DNA from: Rhodocyclus purpureus
GTDB lineage: Bacteria; Pseudomonadota; Gammaproteobacteria; Burkholderiales; Rhodocyclaceae
Direction of reading: 5' to 3'
DNA: 64,000 nt
Assembly: GCF_016653115.1 (NCBI RefSeq)
Contig: NZ_NHRX01000019.1
Span: forward strand, 1-64,000
Of this stretch, positions 1-10,642 are shown piece by piece. A program made the position numbers and the translations under genes. Each line of letters begins with the position of its first letter. Within the stretch, counting starts at the first letter, position 1. The notes below the pieces were generated by a model. That model was not told where the DNA came from, made no database searches, and saw only the letters and a program-made list of their open reading frames with translations.

Positions 1-350
1 TTTTCCCATGACGCTCACCACAGTCGCTCTTTACGACCGCAGCTCAGGGTGGTTTGGCATCTCCGCCTGATCGGCGACACCGAGGGGCCCGCCCTCATCA
101 CTGGTACAGCATGACTTCGCGGACGTTCGCCGCTACGTCTTCTTGGCACACCGACAACTATCTTGACTCAGGGGGAGATGTCTCGCGCTAATCGTTGATA
201 AGTAAAGGGGGCAGGCAGGCGATGCTGGCCAGGTGTCTAGCTCCATGGCGATATTGAGAACAATTCTTTTTACTGATAACCAGCCCACAATCTGCCGCAC
301 GACTTACGCCCCAGGTCGGTGACAGCCGGGACATACACCCCCGAGCCAGC
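1..350. other. Element DNA without a recognisable gene
   Basis: No convincing reading frame, RNA gene or known insertion-sequence end was seen here on either strand. Stops are frequent in all frames. It may be the decayed edge of the next gene of the element or non-coding DNA beside the putative origin. Confidence 0.4.
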
Positions 351-612
351 GCTTACCACGCTTACTTTTCTTCAATTTTGAGTTGGTAAGCAGAAAACCC
401 TTATCAACACAGGCTTTTCGCCATGCTTTACCGAATTACCTGATGGGGGGTGTATCCCCCCTATATAAATTTCACCCCCTACACCTACTTTTATTTTTCT
501 TTCCTTCCCTATAGAAAATGTTGGTAAAACGGTAAGGCACCCCGAAAGCCCTTATTCGGCGCGGTTTTTCGCTTACCGACCTGTCTGGTAAGCACTGGTA
601 AGCCCGGTAAGA
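351..612. other. Candidate replication origin with GGTAAGC repeats
   Basis: At least nine copies of a GGTAAGC-like box lie in 262 bases in both orientations: GCTTACC at 351 and 571, TTGGTAAGC at 383, GCTTTACC at 425, TTGGTAAA at 521, CGGTAAGG at 530, TGGTAAGC at 586 and 596, and CGGTAAG at 605. The last two TGGTAAGC copies are spaced exactly 10 bases, one helical turn. Between the two groups lies an AT-rich stretch (about 461-520) preceded by a GGGGGG-TGTAT-CCCCCC hairpin at 445-461. Iterons plus an AT-rich segment just downstream of a primase-helicase gene match the layout of satellite and plasmid origins. Function is inferred. Confidence 0.5.
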
Positions 613-640
613 TTCGGAGCAGCACACAGTCTGGGGCAGG

Positions 641-668
641 CAAAAAAACAGCCGACCCGAAGGCCGGC
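641..668 (-). terminator. Rho-independent terminator of the primase operon
   Basis: On the minus strand the sequence reads as a 7-bp stem (GCCGGCC with GGTCGGC, one G-T pair) closed by a TTCG tetraloop and followed by TGTTTTTTT. It starts 43 bases after the primase stop codon and points the same way. Confidence 0.85.
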
Positions 669-711
669 CTCTTGGCACGATAGATCAGGCGGCCGGAATG
701 CCGCCCCCGAT

Positions 712-3393
712 CTAGTCATACAGCGGATGGTCACTCTCGCCGATCTTTTTCAGCATCACCGCTTTGACCTGATGACCATTGACGGCATGAGGATAAGAGC
801 CCTTCCCGTCTCCGCTCATGCTTTTCAGGATTTCCGGCTTGCGTCGGCGGTAGGCATGAACCTCAGAGGCGTCGAAGTGCTCGAATAGGTACTCGTCGAG
901 TCGCTTGCTTGGACTTGCCAGGTAATATCTCCTGTCTTCGTCCTTGCCTTCACTTAGCAGGTAGTCACCGGCAATGCCGTGCTTCTTGTGCATCCAGCGC
1001 ACTGCGTCAGCAGCTACATCAGGCAACGAGTCTGAAAAGCGGTCATAGAGGGTATCAATGCCGTTGCGCTTGATGAAATCGTTGATCCAGCGCTCTGCGT
1101 GCGTCTGGGCTTGATCCCGGCCCATTGCCTGTATCTTCGCAACCATCCTGTTCATGGTTTCGGCCGAGTACGCCAGGATCGACGCGAAGTAGCGGGGGTT
1201 GCCGACCTCGACATAGAGCTGCCGCTTCACCAGTGATCCAGATTCCTCGAAGATCGACATGCGGTTGGCAAATTGGTCCTCAACGCCGTTCTCGGTCACC
1301 AGGCTGGCTACGCTCTCGGCCGACATAAAAAGCTTTGCGAACACCTCGACACTCGCCGTGAGCTGGTTCTTCGGGCTCAGGGTGATTTCCGACTGGAGCT
1401 GCTTCAGCTCGCTCTTCACCGTCTTGAACTCGTCGACCACAAGAGCGAAAGCACGCTTGAAGTCCTCCGGCGCACGACCGACCGGCCGGCCCTCGAACAT
1501 CGCCTCAATCTCCTTCATGCTTGTGCTGACTGAGATACGCAGCGTGTTGAGCACACCCAGCAGAAAGCCCTTGCCCCAGTCACTGTCAGCCAAGATCCAG
1601 AGATAGCACTTCTTGCGGTCCAGGGCGAAGCGGCTCTGCACCAGGAACTCCAGAAAATCGTCGAGGCGAGTGAAATGCTGCTTGTAGTCGTCGATGATGG
1701 CTTGCTCGTAGTTCCCGGGCACTTCAAACGGCTTGTGAGCAAGGACCACCCGCGCTTTGTCCTCGAGAAGGTGCATCGTAGCTTCCTCGGCGAACATGTC
1801 GCAGCGCCACTCGACGCCTTCCCTTTGGTTGTGGTGCTTCAGGTGGTCGATGATGACGGTGCCAGTAGCCTCCGTAACCGCACGACGAAGCGCCTTTTCT
1901 TGCGTCTTATCCAGGCCCTGAGCGGATATTGCCTCTTCGGTCAGATCAGCAATCGCCTGAGCGTCGACAGGGGAGCCGAACGTGCGCACCAGGAACTTGT
2001 ACGCGTCTCCGGCCTGAAACTGGTTGAGGCTCTGGGTGTCATTCAAGAGAAACAGCTTGCTCTTCGAGCCGGACCAGAATGGGCCGCGAATCATCCGCCC
2101 GATGACCTCGGTATCGACGCCAAGTTTGCGAATGGTCTCGGCATCCGCCGGGTTGATCTCAAGAGCCTTGACCAAGCGTGATCTGATGCTGTCGGCGATC
2201 CTCTCGACGGGATCAACGGCGCCAGCGTATTCGTTACCGGCATCCCCTTCCGTCGCCAGGATAGAGCCTGCGCCCGCCCCCGGCACGTCAATCACAGGCA
2301 CATGCTCATCGACTGGATCTGCCTCGGCTTGAACAGTAGCGCCGGCCAGCGCAGCGGCGATCTGCTCTGCAACCACGTCAGCACCTTCCCGGCAGGCCAG
2401 GTCATTCCAGTCGGTAGGTTCCCCGTCGAGGCTGGCGAACTGTGGCACGGCCAGATACCCGCCGACCTCCTGCGCCGCCTTGGTAGCCGCCTCAACACCT
2501 GGGTTGTACTCACCGCCGTCCTTGCGCGTGGTGAAGCGGTCATCGTCGGCGGCCAGCAGGATGATGGCGTCTGGCTGACGCTCGCGGATGGCGGCAGCAA
2601 CGGGCAGCAGGTTGCCGGCGTCGAAGCAAACCAGGGCGGCATGGCCGGTCGCTTCATGGATCGACGCGGCCGTCGCGAACCCCTCGGCCAGCACCCAAAC
2701 CTTGCGGCCGTTGAGTTCTTGCGGCTTGCCTATAGGGAAGAAACGGCCTGCCTTGGCGCCCCCAGCAAGATACAACTTGCTGCCGTTCGGCATGATCGCC
2801 TGCAGGCTCCAAAGCCTGCCGGTGCGGTCCTGGATCGGCACCAAGAGAGCTTGGTCGCTCACGCGCCGAACCTCGCCAGTCTCCTGATTGACTATATCCC
2901 AGACACCCACACACAGACCGTGCGCCTTGACTTGCTTGCGAGCGAGGTAAGGATGTTCAGTGGCCGGATCGGCAGCGTTCCGTATGGCAGAGGCTAGTTC
3001 TGAAGCCTTAGCTTGCTGTGCCGCTTTCTCCGCTGCGGCAGCCTCCGCCTTCAGGCGGGAGGCCTCTCGCATGGCGGCGATGTCGGCGGCGCTCAGCCGG
3101 CGCTCTGGACGAGACCAGGACCAGCCGTTTTCCTTCGCCAGGTGGAACAGGGTGCCGATACCCACCTTGCCGCAGGCCTTGATCGAGCGCCAGACAGCCT
3201 TGGCGTCAGCCTCGTGGTATGAGGCGGCACCCTTCGACCAATCGTGCCACAGCCATTCACCTTCTTCCGCGATTTCAGACTTGATGGCCATTGCGACGCG
3301 AAGCCAAGTCTCGCGATCATCTGGGGAGACGTAATTCAGTGCCGACTGAATTTTCTCGAGGCCGGCCGGCGCGGTCATGGCGGCGATGGTCAT
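712..3393 (-). CDS. Primase-helicase of the mobile element (PriCT_2 / Toprim-like / D5-type helicase)
   Basis: Probable replication-initiation protein of the element, 893 residues. Residues about 12-90 resemble the PriCT_2 primase C-terminal type domain (WLRVAMAIKSE, VGIGTLFHLAKENGW). Residues about 185-345 look Toprim-like (VLAEGFATAASIHEATG, ILLAADDD, DWNDLA). The C-terminal half resembles the DUF5906/D5 superfamily-3 helicase found in phage and satellite primases: a P-loop-like SDWGKGFLLG near residue 605 and the acidic ALVVDEF near 650. The P-loop is atypical because GKG replaces GK[ST]; related families also use GKG, so activity is not excluded. The start overlaps the preceding gene's stop as ATGA, so translation is probably coupled. 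A second ATG five codons in is possible. Origin-like repeats and a terminator follow. Confidence 0.85.
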   Translation of the reverse strand: MTIAAMTAPAGLEKIQSALNYVSPDDRETWLRVAMAIKSEIAEEGEWLWHDWSKGAASYHEADAKAVWRSIKACGKVGIGTLFHLAKENGWSWSRPERRLSAADIAAMREASRLKAEAAAAEKAAQQAKASELASAIRNAADPATEHPYLARKQVKAHGLCVGVWDIVNQETGEVRRVSDQALLVPIQDRTGRLWSLQAIMPNGSKLYLAGGAKAGRFFPIGKPQELNGRKVWVLAEGFATAASIHEATGHAALVCFDAGNLLPVAAAIRERQPDAIILLAADDDRFTTRKDGGEYNPGVEAATKAAQEVGGYLAVPQFASLDGEPTDWNDLACREGADVVAEQIAAALAGATVQAEADPVDEHVPVIDVPGAGAGSILATEGDAGNEYAGAVDPVERIADSIRSRLVKALEINPADAETIRKLGVDTEVIGRMIRGPFWSGSKSKLFLLNDTQSLNQFQAGDAYKFLVRTFGSPVDAQAIADLTEEAISAQGLDKTQEKALRRAVTEATGTVIIDHLKHHNQREGVEWRCDMFAEEATMHLLEDKARVVLAHKPFEVPGNYEQAIIDDYKQHFTRLDDFLEFLVQSRFALDRKKCYLWILADSDWGKGFLLGVLNTLRISVSTSMKEIEAMFEGRPVGRAPEDFKRAFALVVDEFKTVKSELKQLQSEITLSPKNQLTASVEVFAKLFMSAESVASLVTENGVEDQFANRMSIFEESGSLVKRQLYVEVGNPRYFASILAYSAETMNRMVAKIQAMGRDQAQTHAERWINDFIKRNGIDTLYDRFSDSLPDVAADAVRWMHKKHGIAGDYLLSEGKDEDRRYYLASPSKRLDEYLFEHFDASEVHAYRRRKPEILKSMSGDGKGSYPHAVNGHQVKAVMLKKIGESDHPLYD

Positions 3394-3986
3394 GCTGCCT
3401 CCTCGAAGCGAGCCAGCCGCTCGCCCATTTCACCCAGTTCAGCAAGCAATTCCAGGAAGGTCAGTCGCTTCTGGTTTTTCGGCCCCCCCTCTGGCTGCCA
3501 AAGAAAACACTGCTCGTCCGGCGAGATCAGAATTTGCGGCGCCTCTCGATCATGGGGGCGGGCCTTGCCATCGATCGAACATAGCTTGACTCGCTGCCAA
3601 CCGGGCTCGACCTGGCTTGCGGGCCGCCTGAGTTCATCCTCGTGGCAGACCATGACGCGCTCTGCGATGAGAAATACCCCTTGATTAGCAAGGAGTGCAT
3701 CGACGCCGCTGAATTTTGCAAGGTGGACGACGTACTCCGCCCAGGTATTTGTCCAGTGCTCAGCTGCAATGTCGTTGCAACGAAGACTGCGGAATCCCGG
3801 CGGCGTGTGCTCGGCTACGTACAGCAGAGCATCGACAACAGCCAACTTCACGGCAGGGCTTGCGTTTCGCTCGTTGGCGATGCAAGATTGAGTAGCTGAA
3901 TGGAGTTCGGTATGTTCGCCCTGGCCGGCAACATCCCGAGAAGACTCGCCCACCGTGGCGAGTTTTTTTTCGACTGTGATTTTCAT
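3390..3986 (-). CDS. Hypothetical protein between regulator and primase
   Basis: A 198-residue soluble protein with no signal peptide or membrane segment. I do not recognise a family. The N-terminal 45 residues are polar and may be flexible. The middle has a compact alpha/beta look (VDALLYVAEHTPPGFRSL), and the C-terminus is a Leu/Glu-rich helix (LTFLELLAELGEMGERLARF). It overlaps the upstream regulator and the downstream primase by 4 bases each (ATGA), so it belongs to the same mRNA and probably serves replication or regulation of the element. Codon use resembles its neighbours. Tight overlaps on both sides make the reading frame secure; function is unknown. Confidence 0.75.
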   Translation of the reverse strand: MKITVEKKLATVGESSRDVAGQGEHTELHSATQSCIANERNASPAVKLAVVDALLYVAEHTPPGFRSLRCNDIAAEHWTNTWAEYVVHLAKFSGVDALLANQGVFLIAERVMVCHEDELRRPASQVEPGWQRVKLCSIDGKARPHDREAPQILISPDEQCFLWQPEGGPKNQKRLTFLELLAELGEMGERLARFEEAA

Positions 3987-4207
3987 GCTGCCTCTCCTTC
4001 CAGCAGCCTTTCGACCGCATCACGCGGCCACACCAGCAGCCGATTAGGCAGTTTCCGTGGGCGAATGTTGAGGTAGTGCCCCTTACGGCAGAGGCTGGCC
4101 CGTACCGTCTGGGCTTGCACATGCAGAAGAGCTGCGAACTCGTCGGTGCTCAGGTCGCGGCGAGAAAGATCCTGCAGCGCCTGATTTGCTCGTTTTTGAT
4201 GTTGCAT
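3983..4207 (-). CDS. AlpA/MerR-like small DNA-binding regulator (excisionase type)
   Basis: A 74-residue protein with a winged-helix pattern: LSTDEFAALLHVQAQTVRAS, then a basic turn and IRPRKLPNRLLVWPRDAVERLL, where the W-P...V-E-R-L-L end is typical of AlpA/Xis-like excision regulators. In related elements such proteins drive excision or control integrase expression. It opens the operon regulator-unknown-primase. A GGAG seven bases upstream supports the ATG at 4207. The start codon lies inside one arm of a perfect 10-bp inverted repeat (4202-4211 with 4245-4254), which could hide the start in the mRNA or act as an operator. The family call is motif-based. Confidence 0.7.
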   Translation of the reverse strand: MQHQKRANQALQDLSRRDLSTDEFAALLHVQAQTVRASLCRKGHYLNIRPRKLPNRLLVWPRDAVERLLEGEAA

Positions 4208-4394
4208 TGAATTGCTCCGTGTTTAACGACGAGCGCATGGTAGCTTCAATGCAAGCCATTGAAAATACAGCAAATTTGATCAAATCAACGTTTTTGCTTG
4301 AGACATAAGGGCTTTTGCAGTATTCAACCCGCATAGAATATTTGCTGCAAAGAAAAAGAAGACTTAGATCATCCCGGAATATAGTCAAATTTGC
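4202..4394 (-). promoter_or_regulatory. Control region of the regulator-primase operon
   Basis: The 187 bases between integrase and regulator are AT-rich. They contain the perfect palindrome ATTTGATCAAAT (4274-4285) and the 10-bp inverted repeat TTGCATTGAA/TTCAATGCAA at 4202-4211 and 4245-4254. On the minus strand a TTGATT (-35-like) and TATTTT (-10-like) flank the palindrome at about 15 bp spacing, so the palindrome would sit between promoter elements. The TTTGATCAA core recurs upstream of the integrase at 5902-5910, suggesting one repressor for both units. Promoter positions are inference. Confidence 0.5.
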
Positions 4395-5825
4395 TCAGGC
4401 AACTGCTAGGGCCGGCTTCCCAATCTCCGGCGCAGGTCGCGGCTTGATGCCGGCCTCTGTCAAAATCCAATTCTCAATGCGCTCATGCCACATGCGCAGC
4501 AGGTCCAGGGGGCGGATCCGGTAATGTTTTTCGGCCGTTGCGCTCGGCTTGTGCCCCATGATTTGCGCCACCACGCCAGTGGGTACCTGGCACCACTCAG
4601 AAAGCGTGCCAAAGCTGCGCCGTAGGCCGTGAATGGTCATATCACTCGGCAGACCTGCGGCGGCGAGGGCACGCTTGTGGGCGATGCGCGGCTCTTGCAG
4701 GCGCCCGGATTCAGCGGTCGGGCTGGCAAACACCCACGGGGATGGCTCCCAAGCGTCGAGGTCGTTCTTGATGCGCTTGCCGTGCAGGACGCGCCACTCC
4801 GGTGGCGGGGTGTCGTTGATGCGCTTCAACTCTAGCAGCAAGCCTGCCACATAGGGCGTTAGCGGGATGGTGCGCTCGCCTTCCAGCTTGTCCCCGATGG
4901 TTAGGGCCTTCCACTGAAAATCCACGTCCTCCCACCGCAGGCCGGCCACTTCTTCCCGGCGAGCTCCAGTCAGCAGCGCCACCTGCAAATAGGCGGAGTG
5001 CACCGGGTTTGAGATAGCGCGTACCTGCTCAAACCACGGGCGCAGCATCTCGCGCTGCAGACAATCGTCCTTCGCCTGACGCTTAGGCAGTTCTTCCCGC
5101 ACCGCCTTTGCAGCGCATGCTCCAGTCTGCACCTGGTCTGCGAACACCGGCTGCTCTGCGCACCAGTTCAGAAAACCACGCAGCAGCCGAAAAGCGAGCG
5201 CGGCATGAGTCGGGCGCTTGGCCGCCTCGCCGGCCAGCCACGCCTGCACCCGATCAGCGTCGATCTCACGCAGCGGCAGCGCCAGCAGTGGCCGAAGGGC
5301 CCCGGCTTGAGTTGTGCCGTCATCGGTCGTCTTGCGGCCTCGAGTGATCGGCTTGCCGCCCTCAGCGCTCACCCGCTCATGGTCACGCAGCATTAAGCCG
5401 CCCCACTTCCCACGGCGAGCCTCAATGTAGGCGCTCCAGGCGTCGAGGGCTGGCGCCGACATGCGTTCAGCCTCAAGCTTCGCAGCCACAGCGGCCGCCT
5501 TCTTGGCCTCCGCTGCGGCAATGCGATCGGCCTTCTCTTGGCGCGGATCGATGCCTTGGTCGACCATCACTTGCAGGCGTCGTGCTTCTTCCCGTGCGGC
5601 GTCCAGCAGCCAAGCGTCGACGGAGCCGATCGTGACCCTGATGGGTATCGTGTTCAGTTTGGCGGCGAACACGAAGCTCTTCGCCCCCGCCGGCGTGATC
5701 CTGATGCACAGGCATCTCGGATCTTCATCGTAGACATATCGCGCCTGCTTGCCGGTAGGCGGCTCCATGCTCTTGATCCGCTGGATGGTCAGTTTCCTTC
5801 GTTCGGTATCGGCCCTCTTGCCCAT
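4395..5825 (-). CDS. int: Tyrosine site-specific integrase
   Basis: Phage/ICE-type integrase of 476 residues that would recombine the element into a tRNA gene. The N-terminal ~90 residues are the DUF4102 arm-binding domain (YVYDEDPRCLCIRITPAG, VTIGSVDAWLLDAAREEA), then a charged Ala/Lys linker, a SAM-like core-binding domain (LRPLLALPLREIDADRVQAW) and the catalytic domain. Catalytic residues are visible: Arg in LLTGARREEV, His and Arg in IHGLRRSFG, His in MGHKPSATAEKHY and the nucleophilic Tyr in the same stretch. The ATG at 5825 was chosen over upstream codons because GAGGAG lies seven bases before it. The 5' end faces the tRNA fragment, as is normal for tRNA-targeting integrases. Length is usual for the family. 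Confidence 0.95.
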   Translation of the reverse strand: MGKRADTERRKLTIQRIKSMEPPTGKQARYVYDEDPRCLCIRITPAGAKSFVFAAKLNTIPIRVTIGSVDAWLLDAAREEARRLQVMVDQGIDPRQEKADRIAAAEAKKAAAVAAKLEAERMSAPALDAWSAYIEARRGKWGGLMLRDHERVSAEGGKPITRGRKTTDDGTTQAGALRPLLALPLREIDADRVQAWLAGEAAKRPTHAALAFRLLRGFLNWCAEQPVFADQVQTGACAAKAVREELPKRQAKDDCLQREMLRPWFEQVRAISNPVHSAYLQVALLTGARREEVAGLRWEDVDFQWKALTIGDKLEGERTIPLTPYVAGLLLELKRINDTPPPEWRVLHGKRIKNDLDAWEPSPWVFASPTAESGRLQEPRIAHKRALAAAGLPSDMTIHGLRRSFGTLSEWCQVPTGVVAQIMGHKPSATAEKHYRIRPLDLLRMWHERIENWILTEAGIKPRPAPEIGKPALAVA

Positions 5826-6005
5826 GTCGGACTCCTCAGCAAACGGAGCAACGAAATCCGTTGCTCCTTTATTGCTCCCTAGTCTAACAACTCCGACCAA
5901 CTTTGATCAACGTCAAAATTTGATTAAAATTCTATTTTTCAATGTCTTATGATATTTTTTGAGCAAACAGTCAACGGCGGACAGTGTCGAAAAACGCTAT
6001 TTTTT
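5826..6005 (-). promoter_or_regulatory. Integrase control region
   Basis: AT-rich 180-base leader between integrase and attachment site. TTTGATCAA at 5902-5910 and the related ATTTGATTAAAA at 5918-5929 echo the palindrome upstream of the regulator gene (4274-4285), which makes them likely operators. Integrase arm-binding sites are also expected here but cannot be told apart by eye. Confidence 0.45.
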
Positions 6006-6055
6006 GAGGACTCATAATCCTTTGGTCCAGGGTTCGAACCCCTGCGGGCCCACCA
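6006..6055 (+). repeat. Attachment-site copy: 3' fragment of tRNA with CAU anticodon (Met or Ile2)
   Basis: Reads as anticodon stem GAGGA/TCCTT around loop CTCATAA (anticodon CAT), 5-base variable loop, T stem CAGGG/CCCTG around TTCGAAC, acceptor 3' strand CGGGCCC, discriminator A and CCA. The D arm and 5' acceptor strand are absent: upstream bases are element DNA. This is therefore not a functional tRNA but the direct-repeat copy made by integration; the intact tRNA should be at the left end of the element. The CAU anticodon fits elongator tRNA-Met, though a lysidine-modified tRNA-Ile cannot be excluded from this half. Confidence 0.85.
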
Positions 6056-6063
6056 AAATGACA

Positions 6064-6092
6064 CCCCCGACCAGAAATGGTCGGGGGTTTTT
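6064..6092 (+). terminator. Original terminator of the target tRNA gene
   Basis: A perfect 10-bp stem (CCCCCGACCA with TGGTCGGGGG), a GAAA tetraloop and five T residues, starting nine bases after the tRNA CCA. Integration has separated it from the intact tRNA gene. Confidence 0.9.
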
Positions 6093-6212
6093 CTTTGGGT
6101 TCAGCGCCCTGGAAAGCCCACTGCCGGGATGATGGCTTTCAATGGCCCCAGCTGCATCACGACCTGGAACTGGTTCTCTCCCTCAGCAATGCCAATGTCG
6201 CGAGACGTCAGG

Positions 6213-6452
6213 TCAGGGGCGCTCATCCCCGACCAGCGGCGCGGCCTCCGGGCTAGCTTCAAGCCATGCATCAAAGGCCGAAAGATCGCCGCGAGACTGA
6301 CGTTCGCGAAAATAGGCTTCCGTTTTCAAAGCGGAAACCTTCTCTGCAATCGCCGTAACGAAAAACTGGTTCATCGAGACATGCTCTTCCTCGGCGACCT
6401 GGCGAGCGTAGGCAAACAACGATTCGGGAACGCGCAGTGCGTAGTTAGCCAT
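6213..6452 (-). CDS. Antitoxin-like protein paired with a PIN toxin
   Basis: A 79-residue protein beginning MANYALRVPESLFAYARQ, which resembles a short ribbon-helix-helix or HicB-type DNA-binding strand-helix-helix (VAEEEHVSMNQFFVTAIAEKV), followed by a polar acidic C-terminus (LSAFDAWLEASPEAAPLVG) of the sort that wraps a toxin. The ATG at 6452 overlaps the toxin stop codon (TGATG), so the two are co-translated, with the toxin first. A TTG one codon upstream is the alternative start. Expected role: neutralise the PIN ribonuclease and repress the operon. Assignment rests on pairing and motif pattern. Confidence 0.75.
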   Translation of the reverse strand: MANYALRVPESLFAYARQVAEEEHVSMNQFFVTAIAEKVSALKTEAYFRERQSRGDLSAFDAWLEASPEAAPLVGDERP

Positions 6453-6889
6453 CAAATTCTCTCCGTTTGCAGTTGCCGCAGAAACTCGCCCGGCGTTGCC
6501 ACCGGCAGCCGAAAGCGGCTGGCTGCGCCAAAATCTCGAACGTTCAATGTCACCAGCAATTCGGCCCGGCCATTCAATGCTGTTTCCAGCACCATCTCAT
6601 CGGCTGGATCGCGCAGCTGTGGGCGCCACAGGTAGTGTAGATGGACGAGCTCGACGCACAAGCACAAGGCATCGAGAAAGGCATCGGTCATTGCCACACT
6701 ACGTCCACTGACTGCGAGTTGTTCCGGGCGCTTGAGCACGGCCTCGTACTCAAGCATCAGCGGAACCGAAACCAGGGCCTTGTACTGACCGTTTCTCAAC
6801 GCTTGCAGCAATGCGAAGGAAGCACCGAGCCGACTGCGCGAAGCGGCGACCAGAATGTTGGTATCGAGAACGACGCGCGACATAGACAT
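6452..6889 (-). CDS. PIN-domain toxin ribonuclease (VapC/COG1569-like)
   Basis: A 145-residue PIN-domain protein of the 'toxin component, PIN family' group. It starts SMSRVVLDTNILVAASRS with the first metal-binding Asp. Further acidic residues are in LMLEYEAVL, LRDPADEMVLETAL and VTLNVRDFG, matching the usual PIN set that binds Mg or Mn to cut RNA. Longer upstream starts exist, but the ATG at 6889 (or 6883) gives the normal family length and the core strand at the N-terminus. It precedes its antitoxin, the reverse of the commonest order. A perfect inverted repeat covers the start codon and is a likely operator. Confidence 0.85.
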   Translation of the reverse strand: MSMSRVVLDTNILVAASRSRLGASFALLQALRNGQYKALVSVPLMLEYEAVLKRPEQLAVSGRSVAMTDAFLDALCLCVELVHLHYLWRPQLRDPADEMVLETALNGRAELLVTLNVRDFGAASRFRLPVATPGEFLRQLQTERI

Positions 6890-6904
6890 ATCAAATATGA
6901 TATG
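6887..6904 (-). promoter_or_regulatory. Operator-like inverted repeat at the PIN toxin start
   Basis: CATATCA-AATA-TGATATG is a perfect 7-bp inverted repeat with a 4-base spacer covering the toxin start codon. It is AT-rich in a GC-rich setting and suits autoregulation by a ribbon-helix-helix antitoxin. Inference. Confidence 0.5.
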
Positions 6905-7028
6905 ATTCGCTCCGAAAAAGTCAAGCCACGCGTTGGTTGGCCATCGACGCGATGCACCAGTACAACTGGCCAAAGCCTGCGCGTCCGCCACTCGAACGCA
7001 GCCGCGCAACGAACGCAGATATGGCACG

Positions 7029-7550
7029 CTATTCGGGCAGATCGTTCAGCGCGTAGCTGGTACTACGCCCGCCCGCAGCATTCTTGCGCAGCACGCCGCG
7101 CCCCAGCAGGTCGCTGATGTCGCGCAGCGCGGTGTCCGGCGAACATTTGGCGATGGCCGCCCACTTGCTGCTGGTGAGCTTGCCCTCGAAGCCGTCGAGC
7201 AGTCGGTTGAGCAACTTCACCTGGCGCTCGTTCAGGGGTGTCGCCGCCCAGCGCTGCCAGAAGCGTGCCTTGAGCAGCACGGCGTCGAGCGTGTGCTGGG
7301 CTTGATCGACCGCGCGGTGCACACTGTCGAGGAACCAGGCCAGCCACTCGGTCACGTCCAGCGTCCCCTTCTGGGTCCGCTCCAGCATGTCGTAGTAGGC
7401 CTTACGCTGCCGTTGAATCTGCGCCGACAGGCTGTAGAAGCGCTGCGGGCTACCGTCGGCGCGTGCCAGCAACAGGTCGCCGATCGCCCGGGCGATACGG
7501 CCGTTGCCGTCGTCGAACGGGTGCAGGGTGACGAACGTCAGAGGTACCTG
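7029..7550 (-). pseudogene. 5'-truncated Fic-family AMP-transferase gene
   Basis: The readable part starts about LTFVTLHPFDDGNGRIAR, carrying the complete Fic active-site motif HPFxDGNGRxxR, and continues through the helical C-terminus to a winged-helix end (LNERQVKLLNRLLDGF, YALNDL). Typical relatives are about 370 residues; here the N-terminal half, including the inhibitory helix and the rest of the Fic fold, is missing. Upstream codons to 7667 read on in frame but look like unrelated filler (MTCSCGECGRYS). It ends close to the PIN gene. Probably a deletion scar; the remaining fragment cannot fold as an active Fic domain. Confidence 0.8.
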
Positions 7551-7642
7551 TAATCGCCGCAATTCATGCGGTGAATATCGGCCGCATTCTCCGCAGGAGC
7601 AAGTCATTCTCCGCTTGCAATGCGGAGACGGGCGGCATGTCC

Positions 7643-10642
7643 TCAGCCGCTCCCCCGCGCGCGCCATTCGCGCAGCGCAGCGCTGAGGATCTCGTACTGG
7701 CGGCGCAGTTCGGCAACGCTCGCGGGGTCGACCTCGCCACCGGACTTGAGCATCTGCTCGACGTCCTTCATCAGCCCGGACAGGCTCGTGCCGCCGATCT
7801 GCGCGATCATGCCCTTCATCGTGTGCGCGGCCCGGGTGGCCTGCTCGCGCTGGCCGGCATCGAGCGCCGCGGCCAGCGTGCCGAACAGTCCCGGCAGGTC
7901 GTCCAGCGCCATCTCGACGACGCTGCGGGCGAGTTCATGGTCACCGCCCAGCAGTTCGAGCATGGTCGCCGCGTCGAACACGCTGCCGGCGGGTTCAGGC
8001 GCTGGCGCCTGGCCCTCCGCTGCGCGCCGTGGCAGCCACTTTTCAAGCATCGCGGACAGCTTGCCGATCTCGATCGGCTTGCACAGGAAATCGTCCATCC
8101 CTGCTGCCAGACAGTCCTGACGGTCCTTCTCGAAGGCGTCGGCAGTGAGCGCGATGATCGGCACCGGCGGGCGTCCGCTCTCGGCCTCCCACTGGCGGAT
8201 GGCACGGGTCGCGGCGTAGCCGTCGAGCACCGGCATCTGCACGTCCATGAACACGAGATCGGGAGTCTCGCCGTAGAGCAGCGAATCGACGCCCTGGCGG
8301 CCGTTCTCGGCCTCGCGTACCTCGATCCCTGACTTCGTCAGCATGAGCTTGATGACCTGACGATTGACCGCATTGTCCTCGACCACCAGCACCCGCCCGG
8401 ACAGGCGCTGCGCCCCTTCGCCGCATTTTCTCTGCATCTTCGGATCCCCCTCCCGCCCGAGTTCGTCTCCTTCCGCGAGCACTTCGACGCGGATGCGGAA
8501 CCAGAAGCGCGAGCCCTGCCCTGGGGCGCTGTCCACCCCGGCCTCGCCGCCCATGAGTTCGGCCAGGCGGCGCACGATCGAGAGGCCAAGCCCGGTACCA
8601 CCGTACTGGCGGGTGGTCGAGCTGTCGATCTGCGAGAAGGGCTCGAACATCAGCGGCTGCTTGTCGGCAGGAATGCCGATGCCGGTGTCGGCGACCGCGA
8701 ATTCGAGCACCGCATCGCCTCCGGCGCAGGACACTTCCCGCGCCGTGATGCGGACTTCGCCACGCTCGGTGAACTTGATCGCGTTGTTCACCAGGTTGCC
8801 GAGCATCTGGCGCAGGCGCACGGTATCACCGCGGTAACGCCGTCCTGCCGCCACCTGGCTTGCCGACTCGATGCGCAAGCCCTTGGCGATGGCTGATTCG
8901 CCGAACAGCGCGTGAATTTCCTGAATGATCTGCGCGGGAGCGAAAACCATGGCTTCGAGTTCTATCCTGTCCTCCTCGACCTTCGACAGGTCGAGGATGT
9001 CGTTGAGCAAGGCGAGCAGCATCTCGCCGGAATTCAGGATGGTACGCGCGCACCTGCCGCGCTCCTCGTCGCTGATACCGGGAAGTAGCAGCACCTGCGC
9101 CATGCCGAGGATGCCGTTCATCGGCGTGCGGATTTCGTGGCTGACGGTGGCGAGGAAACGGCTCTTAGCGACGCTCGCCTGCTGCGCCTTCTGCTGCGCC
9201 TCGATCAACTCGGCCTCGGTCCGCTTCTGCGCCGAGATGTCGACGAAGGCCCAGATCGACTCTTCGCCACCGGCGTGGAGTCGGGCGCCGAAAACATCAT
9301 ACCACCCGGCCGATCCGTCCTTGCGCAGGAACTGTTTCTGCTGCCGGAAGACGCCGCCGGCCGCGATCACCGGCAGAGCCGCGTTGCCGAAAGCTCGCCA
9401 GTCTTCATCGCTCACATGGAGCAGCTGAGTCGGCTGATCGACGAGGTCTTCCTGCCGGTAGTCGAGCATGCGCGCGAAGGCGTGGTTCATCCAGACCATC
9501 CGCCGCCGCCGCAGCATGACGAAGCCGACGACTTCGCTCTGCAGGATCGCCTGCTGTTCCTCGAGCAGGCTGGCGATCCTGGCGTCGGCTTCGCGGCGGG
9601 CACTGATGTCGATGAAGCTGCCGACCATGCGCACTGGGTTGCCGTCGGCGTCACGCTCGACGACGCCGCCACGATCATGCACCCAGACGCTGCCGTCCCT
9701 GCCGAGCATGCGGTGTTCCGACTGGTAGCTCTCGCACTCGCCCTTGAGCACCGCGTCGACCCTCTGCCGGACGGCAGGACGGTCGTCCGGGTGAATCCTG
9801 GCGGCGAACTCCGCGAAGGAACCGATCTCCCCCTTGTCGTCGAGGCCGAGAATCTCGTACCAGCGCCGGTTGTGCACCACCTTCCCCGAAGGCAGGTGCC
9901 AGTCCCAGATCGCCTCGCGCGTCACCCGCAGCACGTCCTGCAGGCGACGCTCGCTCTCGGCCACCTTCTCCTGCTCGCGCACGACCAGCGAGATGTCCTG
10001 CGCGATGATCAGGACCTGCATCCTGCCCTGCGCGTCCTTGAACGGATGCTTGATCGAGCGGAAATGCTGGATCTCGCCGGTGGCGGCATTGAGCGTGTCC
10101 TCGAAGACGACCTCGGCCTCCCCGCGCGCCATGATCGCGAGTACGTTCTCACGGAAAGCATCGGCGATCTCGGGCGGAACGCCGAAATCACCGTCCTGCT
10201 TGCCGACCAGCTCTTCCGGCGTCGTGTCGTACAGCTTCGCCAGCGCCCGGTTGCCGAAGAGGAAATTGCCTTCGGCATCCTTCAGGCAGACGGGGTCGGG
10301 AATCTCGCTGATCAGGGTGCGCAGTAGGCTTTCGCTGTCGCGCAGCGCGTCGCTGCCGGCCTGCAGCGAGGCCAGTTCGTGCTCGACGCGGCACATGAGG
10401 CGCCGCAGGAGGCGCCACGCGCACAGCGACAGCAGGACGAAGGCGGCCAGCAGGGCCAGCGTCGGCAGGACCTCCTCGGGCCAGCCCGCGAGATAGTCGG
10501 CCAGCGCGACGCCATGATGCCGGGCACCCTGCCTCAGCGACAGCGCGGCCAGGGCAGCGACGAGCAGGTTGGCGACGGCCAGGCAGGCCAGCAAGCCCCG
10601 TTGCAAGTGCCGGCGGCAAGCCGCGTCGAGAAGCGATCCCAC
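7643..10642 (-). CDS. Hybrid sensor histidine kinase with three PAS domains, receiver and Hpt
   Basis: Membrane sensor kinase, 999 residues from a GTG at 10642 (GGAG six bases upstream); longer frames read into the preceding pilin gene and are rejected. Two membrane segments (about 18-37 and 58-78) enclose a very small periplasmic loop, so the signal is probably cytoplasmic or membrane-borne. PAS domains follow at about 103-220, 232-350 and 362-475 (VCLKDAEGNFLFGNRA; WDWHLPSGKVVHNRRWYEIL; MVWMNHAFARML). HisKA has H502 in FLATVSHEIRTPMNG; the ATPase has NLVNNAIKF, DTGIGIP and GGTGLGLSI; the receiver has D800 in LVFMDVQMPVLDGY; Hpt has H940 in AAHTMKGMIAQIG. All phosphorelay residues are present. 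No separate response regulator is adjacent. It lies 170 bases after the pilus genes in the same direction and may report on or control the pilus. Confidence 0.9.
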   Translation of the reverse strand: MGSLLDAACRRHLQRGLLACLAVANLLVAALAALSLRQGARHHGVALADYLAGWPEEVLPTLALLAAFVLLSLCAWRLLRRLMCRVEHELASLQAGSDALRDSESLLRTLISEIPDPVCLKDAEGNFLFGNRALAKLYDTTPEELVGKQDGDFGVPPEIADAFRENVLAIMARGEAEVVFEDTLNAATGEIQHFRSIKHPFKDAQGRMQVLIIAQDISLVVREQEKVAESERRLQDVLRVTREAIWDWHLPSGKVVHNRRWYEILGLDDKGEIGSFAEFAARIHPDDRPAVRQRVDAVLKGECESYQSEHRMLGRDGSVWVHDRGGVVERDADGNPVRMVGSFIDISARREADARIASLLEEQQAILQSEVVGFVMLRRRRMVWMNHAFARMLDYRQEDLVDQPTQLLHVSDEDWRAFGNAALPVIAAGGVFRQQKQFLRKDGSAGWYDVFGARLHAGGEESIWAFVDISAQKRTEAELIEAQQKAQQASVAKSRFLATVSHEIRTPMNGILGMAQVLLLPGISDEERGRCARTILNSGEMLLALLNDILDLSKVEEDRIELEAMVFAPAQIIQEIHALFGESAIAKGLRIESASQVAAGRRYRGDTVRLRQMLGNLVNNAIKFTERGEVRITAREVSCAGGDAVLEFAVADTGIGIPADKQPLMFEPFSQIDSSTTRQYGGTGLGLSIVRRLAELMGGEAGVDSAPGQGSRFWFRIRVEVLAEGDELGREGDPKMQRKCGEGAQRLSGRVLVVEDNAVNRQVIKLMLTKSGIEVREAENGRQGVDSLLYGETPDLVFMDVQMPVLDGYAATRAIRQWEAESGRPPVPIIALTADAFEKDRQDCLAAGMDDFLCKPIEIGKLSAMLEKWLPRRAAEGQAPAPEPAGSVFDAATMLELLGGDHELARSVVEMALDDLPGLFGTLAAALDAGQREQATRAAHTMKGMIAQIGGTSLSGLMKDVEQMLKSGGEVDPASVAELRRQYEILSAALREWRARGSG

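Follow-up and report, generated by a model that had tools for sequence, protein, structure and literature searches.

A Putative Replication Origin of Two Mirrored Box Arms beside the Primase-Helicase Gene of a tRNA-Integrated Element in Rhodocyclus purpureus

A dense cluster of short boxes lies directly 3' of a primase-helicase gene in Rhodocyclus purpureus, within the 64-kb stretch of DNA that was analyzed here as a whole (the window). The locus raises the question of whether these boxes form the replication origin of the element that carries them, and which part of which protein would read them. An iteron-type origin had been proposed in a first-pass annotation, and by comparison with relatives this reading is strongly supported. 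We propose, with a probability of roughly 0.9, that the element, which is satellite-like and integrated in a tRNA gene, starts its replication at 351-612 and that its own primase-helicase recognizes this origin, because box clusters accompany most of the tested genes of the protein family, their spacing is largely kept, box and protein C-terminus changed jointly in one plasmid pair, and the layout resembles a satellite origin.

The Box Cluster and the Element That Carries It

Under a rule that accepts GGTAAGC with at most one mismatch, or any box starting with GGTAA, 11 boxes were found in 351-612: five exact (351-, 385+, 571-, 587+, and 597+), three with one mismatch (360-, 531+, and 606+), and three with two mismatches (426-, 434-, and 523+). 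The first-pass annotation had described about nine GGTAAGC-like boxes in both orientations; the cluster and its two orientations were confirmed, and the count was raised to 11. Read along the sense of the primase-helicase gene (minus), the boxes are spaced <9<10<16>40<8<89>8>41<25>9>, that is, in two mirrored arms (table 1); the window's right inner box pair was recovered incompletely by a weight matrix and rests on the GGTAA rule. In addition to what had been noticed before, the region forms an imperfect palindrome about position 481.5, in which 52% of 101 arm positions pair, compared with a mean of 36% and a maximum of 43% in 200 shuffles. The AT-rich stretch, the GC hairpin, and the position right after the primase terminator, all noted earlier, were also recovered: 461-540 has 35% GC compared with 67% for the window, a hairpin of GGGGGG TGTAT CCCCCC was read by eye at 445-461 within the centre, and a second hairpin, also read by eye, separates the boxes from the primase-helicase stop at 712. 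The AT content of the centre as delimited between the arms is only 61%, with its T-rich side at 462-522 on the plus strand, and the order of its T-run and purine-rich stretch resembles that of relatives in weak alignment only. The cluster is thus bounded by the gene's stop and hairpin on one side and by the 5' part of a group II intron on the other.

CTTACC occurs seven times within 300 bp and GCTTACC five times, against maxima of five for any 6-mer and four for any 7-mer in 2000 dinucleotide shuffles of 301-700. The raw word count by itself is not unique to 351-612, because other words of the 64 kb attain similar counts within 300 bp: eight copies for four 6-mers, seven for four more, and five for at least seven 7-mers; the competing words listed are all G+C-rich, in a sequence of 67% GC. 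Ten of the 25 window copies of GGTAA/TTACC fall between 353 and 610, where 0.06 are expected from the rest of the window. Across the 3.62-Mb genome, the 8-mer TGGTAAGC has 36 copies, four of them in the box region, compared with 55 for the reversed control word, and the close pair TGGTAAGC-N0-20-GGTAAG has a single location, the box region. Thus, on the genome scale the cluster is rare and special, but the 8-mer is not rare. Six of the TGGTAAGC copies, most of them about 1.3 kb apart, lie on contig C2 at 495-8669, which suggests a large tandem-repeat gene.

The integrase, AlpA-like, 198-aa protein, and primase-helicase genes share one orientation. The AlpA assignment is weak, as the HTH_17 match of the 74-aa protein reaches 23.8 bits against a cut-off of 27. 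The 3' part of a tRNA-Met gene is repeated at 6006-6056 of the window, which starts contig C19, and the intact tRNA-Met lies on contig C8 (locus L066, 6365-6441), beside a gene that reads by eye as rpoD; these 51-bp attachment repeats suggest that the element runs over C8 1-6363 and C19 1-6056 and is 12.4 kb or more long. Its unassembled middle is flanked by the intron on C19 and, on C8, by an apparent transposase end. Copies of window positions 1-175 stand at four further places in the genome, of which two are contig starts, and a copy of 1-127 stands at a fifth; this multicopy group II intron is the probable cause of the break in the assembly within the element. On the C8 part, 867-1847 of L066 reads by eye as an IS transposase gene, and an apparent end of a second transposase copy lies at the contig start (1-30). 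Among the scanned proteins of this part, no capsid or packaging gene was recognized (six in PHROGs, seven in Pfam); one of the six gave a weak HNH-endonuclease match in PHROGs, and none of the seven had a Pfam match. Because the intron interrupts the element near the origin and a transposase gene is present, the element may be decaying. The carrier had been proposed to be a satellite or a plasmid; it is a tRNA-Met-integrated element, more like P4 or a phage-inducible island, so that satellite-like remains a suitable description and plasmid is less apt. On the chromosome side of the attachment repeat, at 6213-7027, a HicB/Arc-like gene (below the Pfam cut-off) and a PIN-domain gene have the look of a toxin-antitoxin pair.

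Table 1. Features of the putative origin and of the window part of the element
Feature	Position	Strand	Basis or remark
5' part of group II intron	1..175	-	RF01999 at 1-96; the window's contig starts here
Putative replication origin, two mirrored arms	351..612	-	Shuffle tests, palindrome, box reading
Distal arm, 5 boxes	351..440	-	434-440, 426-432, 385-391 (inverted), 360-366, 351-357
Centre between arms, presumed DNA unwinding element	441..522	no strand	61% AT
Gene-proximal arm, 6 boxes	523..612	-	606-612, 597-603, 587-593, 571-577 (inverted), 531-537, 523-529
Terminator-like hairpin with T run, 3' of primase-helicase gene	642..670	-	By eye
Primase-helicase, 893 aa	712..3393	-	PriCT_2 aa 15-86, Toprim_3 234-339, predicted SF3-fold helicase and C-terminal winged-helix-like domain ~392-893
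198-aa protein	3390..3986	-	Pfam, PHROGs, and NCBIfam gave no family at E 0.01
74-aa HTH_17 protein, AlpA-like regulator (name inferred)	3983..4207	-	Below Pfam cut-off
Tyrosine integrase with Arm-DNA-bind_3	4395..5900	-	Later start possible
Attachment repeat, copy of tRNA-Met 3' part	6006..6056	+	Identical to contig C8 6364-6414

The Primase-Helicase and Its Family

At E 0.01, neither Pfam nor NCBIfam gave a match for the second half of the protein; residues 392-880 matched one phage family, PHROG 35045, labelled DNA primase. In an AlphaFold model (pLDDT 87.5), this half is predicted to have an SF3-type helicase fold with Walker motifs. Foldseek and VIA matched it to the C-terminal region of NrS-1 (Z 13.5, 349 residues, 7.1 A), poxvirus D5 (8apl; Z 11.3, 363 residues, 6.7 A), papillomavirus E1 (2v9p; Z 10.8, 187 residues, 3.5 A), and the SaPI5 primase-helicase (7ola; Z 10.2, 317 residues, 7.2 A); the comparison with PriRep1 (7pds) gave Z 9.3 (284 residues, 6.2 A). 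The GK and acidic motifs are conserved across 15 family sequences. The C-terminal domain was predicted with helices and a beta hairpin (pLDDT 76.9), and in the model the last hundred or so residues look like a winged helix. For this domain Foldseek gave no match at E 0.001, and the best VIA match, a weak one below the sure-match level, was to a relaxosome accessory protein (5vfy; Z 6.3, 97 residues, 3.5 A), a sister entry of which contains oriT DNA; the match to SaPIbov1 Rep was also weak (8tch; Z 4.0, 88 residues, 4.6 A). By sequence, no link to solved structures was found for the helicase family up to E 1, and no meaningful one for the C-terminal domain. Comparison of the family profile with P4 alpha and EcCICFT073 Rep by hhalign, a weak test with templates of one sequence each, also gave nothing.

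Matches to the N-terminal part are frequent (63 of 200 genomes, counting that of the window). By comparison, the helicase family is rarely seen: scans that each included the genome of the window found it in 3 genomes out of 369 for the class, 1 out of 395 for the family, and 1 out of 399 for the order. A profile search of viral sequences gave 15 loci, where an earlier whole-protein search had given none; L046, a second copy of CP-T1, was excluded before counting. A scan of genome contigs yielded L033 and L034, the second of which was rejected as a helicase relative: its match is confined to the primase half (aa 4-385, 79%), and no cluster lies downstream. The carriers of the family are tailed phages, free 11-15 kb enterobacterial plasmids, metagenomic contigs, and one integrated element, that of the window. 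In these proteins a similar second half is fused to differing first halves, identified with Pfam as a CHC2 zinc primase in L033, an NrS-1-type HBD in CP-T1, Prim-Pol with PriCT_1 in L048, Prim-Pol with PriCT_2 in L045, and PriCT_2 alone in L053; no Pfam match was obtained for L036, L040, L052, L057, and L074, or for the 523-aa plasmid protein of L038. On the free plasmids (L038, L039, L067, L068, L069, and L071-L073), the probable initiator is annotated as hypothetical or unannotated, and on several of them a ribbon-helix-helix protein is encoded close to it. None of the other genes of plasmid NZ_CP132287.1 bears a replication name, and most of its 13 annotated genes are called hypothetical. 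A short DNA query for the boxes in phages gave nothing useful, and among the titles and abstract starts listed from the open-licence literature, none described this origin or helicase family.

Box Clusters, Spacing, and a Natural Swap among Relatives

Thirty family genes with usable coordinates, the window included, were compared with 100 shuffles of each 1-kb flank. In 25 of them, a 6-mer cluster exceeded all shuffles in one flank, downstream in 23 and upstream in two (L037 and L050); the opposite flank, available for 23 of the 25, exceeded its shuffles once (L053, 6 against 5). The five without such a cluster were L035, L036, L047, L051, and L070. The CP-T1-type loci L035 and L047 have long nested inverted repeats instead, which in L035 surround an AT-rich centre (symmetry 0.53); L036 tied with its shuffles in a tested flank of just 284 bp, L070 is a shorter gene copy, and L051 has no cluster. 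L069, the coordinates of which were wrong in the cluster test, was read separately by eye. In the Vibrio phage CP-T1 locus (L035, 501-686), a run of CCTACGCGGCGCA-type repeats upstream of the primase gene has the look of a pentapeptide-repeat coding stretch.

The box sequences vary among the relatives (GGTAAGC, CGATTAC, GGTTACA, GGTAACA, TGTAACA, GGTTCCA, GTTAACA, GGTGAGG, GGGACAG, and others). The typical layout has a close pair on each side of an AT-rich centre, then about 41 bp, one inverted box, and more boxes. A motif of a pair (7-11 bp) followed after 40-44 bp by an inverted box was present in 17 of 22 origins, compared with a mean of 2.3 and a maximum of 7 under random placement, and in both arms of 7 of the 22; it was absent from L043, L052, L054, L056, and L074. 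This sample left out the near-duplicates L038, L071, and L073, the truncated L036, and L035, L047, L051, L070, and L069. These counts overstate the strength of the rule, because it was formulated after the layouts had been seen and several members are closely related pairs rather than independent cases.

As an intended negative control, we picked 20 stretches behind better-scoring PriCT_2/Toprim matches from more than 80 match rows; in these proteins the match ends before the helicase half, and downstream DNA was available for 19. The control did not prove negative: 7 of the 19 have 3' clusters above all shuffles, so 3' box clusters are wider than this helicase family. These seven (L078, L079, L081, L083, L089, L091, and L094) combine PriCT_2/Toprim with other second halves and have dense clusters of differing box words, such as TGCACA, CGGCAC, and GGGACA. 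The spacing rule was found in 5 of 13 non-family origins (11 control stretches, P4 ori, and P4 crr; random mean 1.0, maximum 5), which makes its presence outside the family suggestive only.

A natural swap bears on the question of the reader. The plasmid genes L072 and L073 are 94% identical; at the DNA level they agree at 98-100% across the first 60% of the gene (4777-5796) and diverge from there into the origin. Of the 29 amino-acid differences, three are at residues 53, 326, and 327 and the other 26 fall within residues 384-501 of the 519, and the box is GGTTACA in one plasmid and GGTTCCA in the other. That the box was recoded along with the last quarter of the protein suggests that it is read by the C-terminal domain; the joint change is one event, which linked divergence alone could mimic. 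The first-pass annotation had assigned box recognition to the PriCT_2/helicase protein. It is the helicase half with the C-terminal domain, and not the PriCT_2 part, that goes with the boxes, with the qualification that the seven PriCT_2/Toprim relatives whose match stops short of the helicase half also have clusters.

The same comparisons bear on other explanations of the locus. A structure-dependent origin, in which a long imperfect stem-loop is recognized rather than the boxes, would also be an origin and is not fully exclusive of our reading. In PMC4234260, a stem-loop located 3' of the gene for an SF3 primase-helicase is reported to be required, and such origins are proposed for the plasmid pRN1 and the Bordetella phage BIP-1. 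Consistent with this, the single strand of the window folds at z = -4.0 at the box region, and palindrome symmetry exceeded shuffles in the window and, with 60 shuffles each, in 9 of 13 further cases. However, of the remaining four (L033, L045, L048, and L051), the first three keep box identity and spacing with symmetry at the shuffle level, and the one-base recoding of the box together with the protein C-terminus fits recognition of sequence; because of this spacing and recoding evidence, we regard the stem-loop explanation as improbable. The boxes might otherwise be regulatory operators, or a partition or incompatibility site, bound by some other DNA-binding protein that the element encodes. 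Groups of inverted and direct boxes are a usual feature of operators and partition sites too, and several plasmid relatives encode ribbon-helix-helix proteins. However, the boxes stand downstream of the gene, beyond a terminator-like hairpin, occur with the helicase gene on phages, on plasmids, and on the island, and changed in sequence along with the helicase C-terminus, and we give this explanation equally little credence. Chance or decayed repeats without function, for which the intron that interrupts the element and the transposase gene could speak, are very improbable in view of the shuffle tests, the symmetry, the spacing kept across relatives, and the open 893-aa reading frame.

Proposed Mechanism and Comparison with Known Systems

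For the iteron-type origin recognized by its own primase-helicase, we propose that the C-terminal winged-helix-like domain would bind one box per subunit, and that the roughly six boxes of each arm would assemble one SF3 hexamer on each arm, face to face. The two hexamers would then melt the AT-rich centre, the Toprim/PriCT_2 half would prime, and, once the element has been excised or induced, a host polymerase would extend bidirectionally. That each arm seats one hexamer is a model that we somewhat favour. A broader joint reading, which is tentative and which we hold to be rather less probable than not in all three of its parts together, is that a common half-origin of about six boxes (two boxes close together, then a space of about four helical turns, an inverted box, and two to four more) seats one SF3 hexamer; that the window type sets two half-origins face to face, whereas P4 keeps them kilobases apart as ori and crr; and that the C-terminal domain and the boxes form one exchangeable specificity cassette, the primase half being exchanged independently. 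If this were true, phages, satellites, and plasmids would change their replication specificity by swapping the cassette only.

The closest layout is that of Gram-negative phage-inducible islands, for which parts of PMC6092414 describe two iteron sets flanking an AT-rich region just 3' of rep, and a rep-ori segment of EcCICFT073 that was tested in E. coli for plasmid maintenance and shown to work. Islands of the EcCICFT073 type have an integrase, an AlpA-type regulator, a primase/Rep, and an origin 3' of rep with two mirrored iteron sets, and the window element has like parts, of which the AlpA-like regulator is a weak assignment and the origin putative. The region 3' of the EcCICFT073 primase gene reads <9<47>21<11<9<32>11>21<47>9>, with 11 boxes at no more than one mismatch to GGTAGAC, compared with 11 in the window by a slightly wider rule around GGTAAGC. 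The pairs of EcCICFT073 are its outermost boxes and lie 47 bp from the inverted box, compared with 40-41 bp in the window, so that this island falls outside the 40-44 bp rule. Of the genes that run in one direction in these islands, the integrase and the primase-helicase are present in the window element; no packaging gene was recognized among the scanned proteins of the C8 part of the element, the middle of which is unassembled. D5_N, DUF5906, and Pox_D5 are carried by P4 alpha and matched by EcCICFT073 Rep, whereas the window protein has none of them at E 0.01 in Pfam, and by these domains it is not of the P4 type.

P4 otherwise resembles the window in its Toprim_3 primase and in boxes directly 3' of the alpha terminator (crr). 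Its ori has six boxes (>10>11>23<42>10>) and resembles a single window arm; so does each repeat of crr, in which a weight matrix finds six boxes (>15<7<11<42>9>) and the record annotates five. The P4 box is GGTGAACA compared with GGTAAGC, and crr and ori lie about 4.7 kb apart on the P4 record, whereas the arms of the window are together. In the SaPIs, according to portions of PMC7581432, Rep reads iterons just downstream of its own gene through its C-terminal domain, apparently as two hexamers; the putative origin of the window likewise lies just downstream of a helicase gene, and the likeness of the proteins is structural only (to 7ola and 8tch, at the Z scores given above). pRN1 and BIP-1 have an SF3 primase-helicase with a winged helix and an origin 3' of the gene, as is predicted for the window, and in PMC4234260 their origins are reported as stem-loops without iterons, unlike the boxes of the window. 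The position of the cluster 3' of the initiator gene is not new, because the crr boxes of P4 also lie directly 3' of the alpha terminator. What is new here is the family of initiators, the box that goes with it, the occurrence of this family on phages and free plasmids, and the spacing that its members share: the origin layout is found beside an initiator with a helicase half that neither Pfam nor NCBIfam matches at E 0.01, and kept spacing with recoded boxes provides a simple rule to find such origins and to predict the pairing of initiator and origin.
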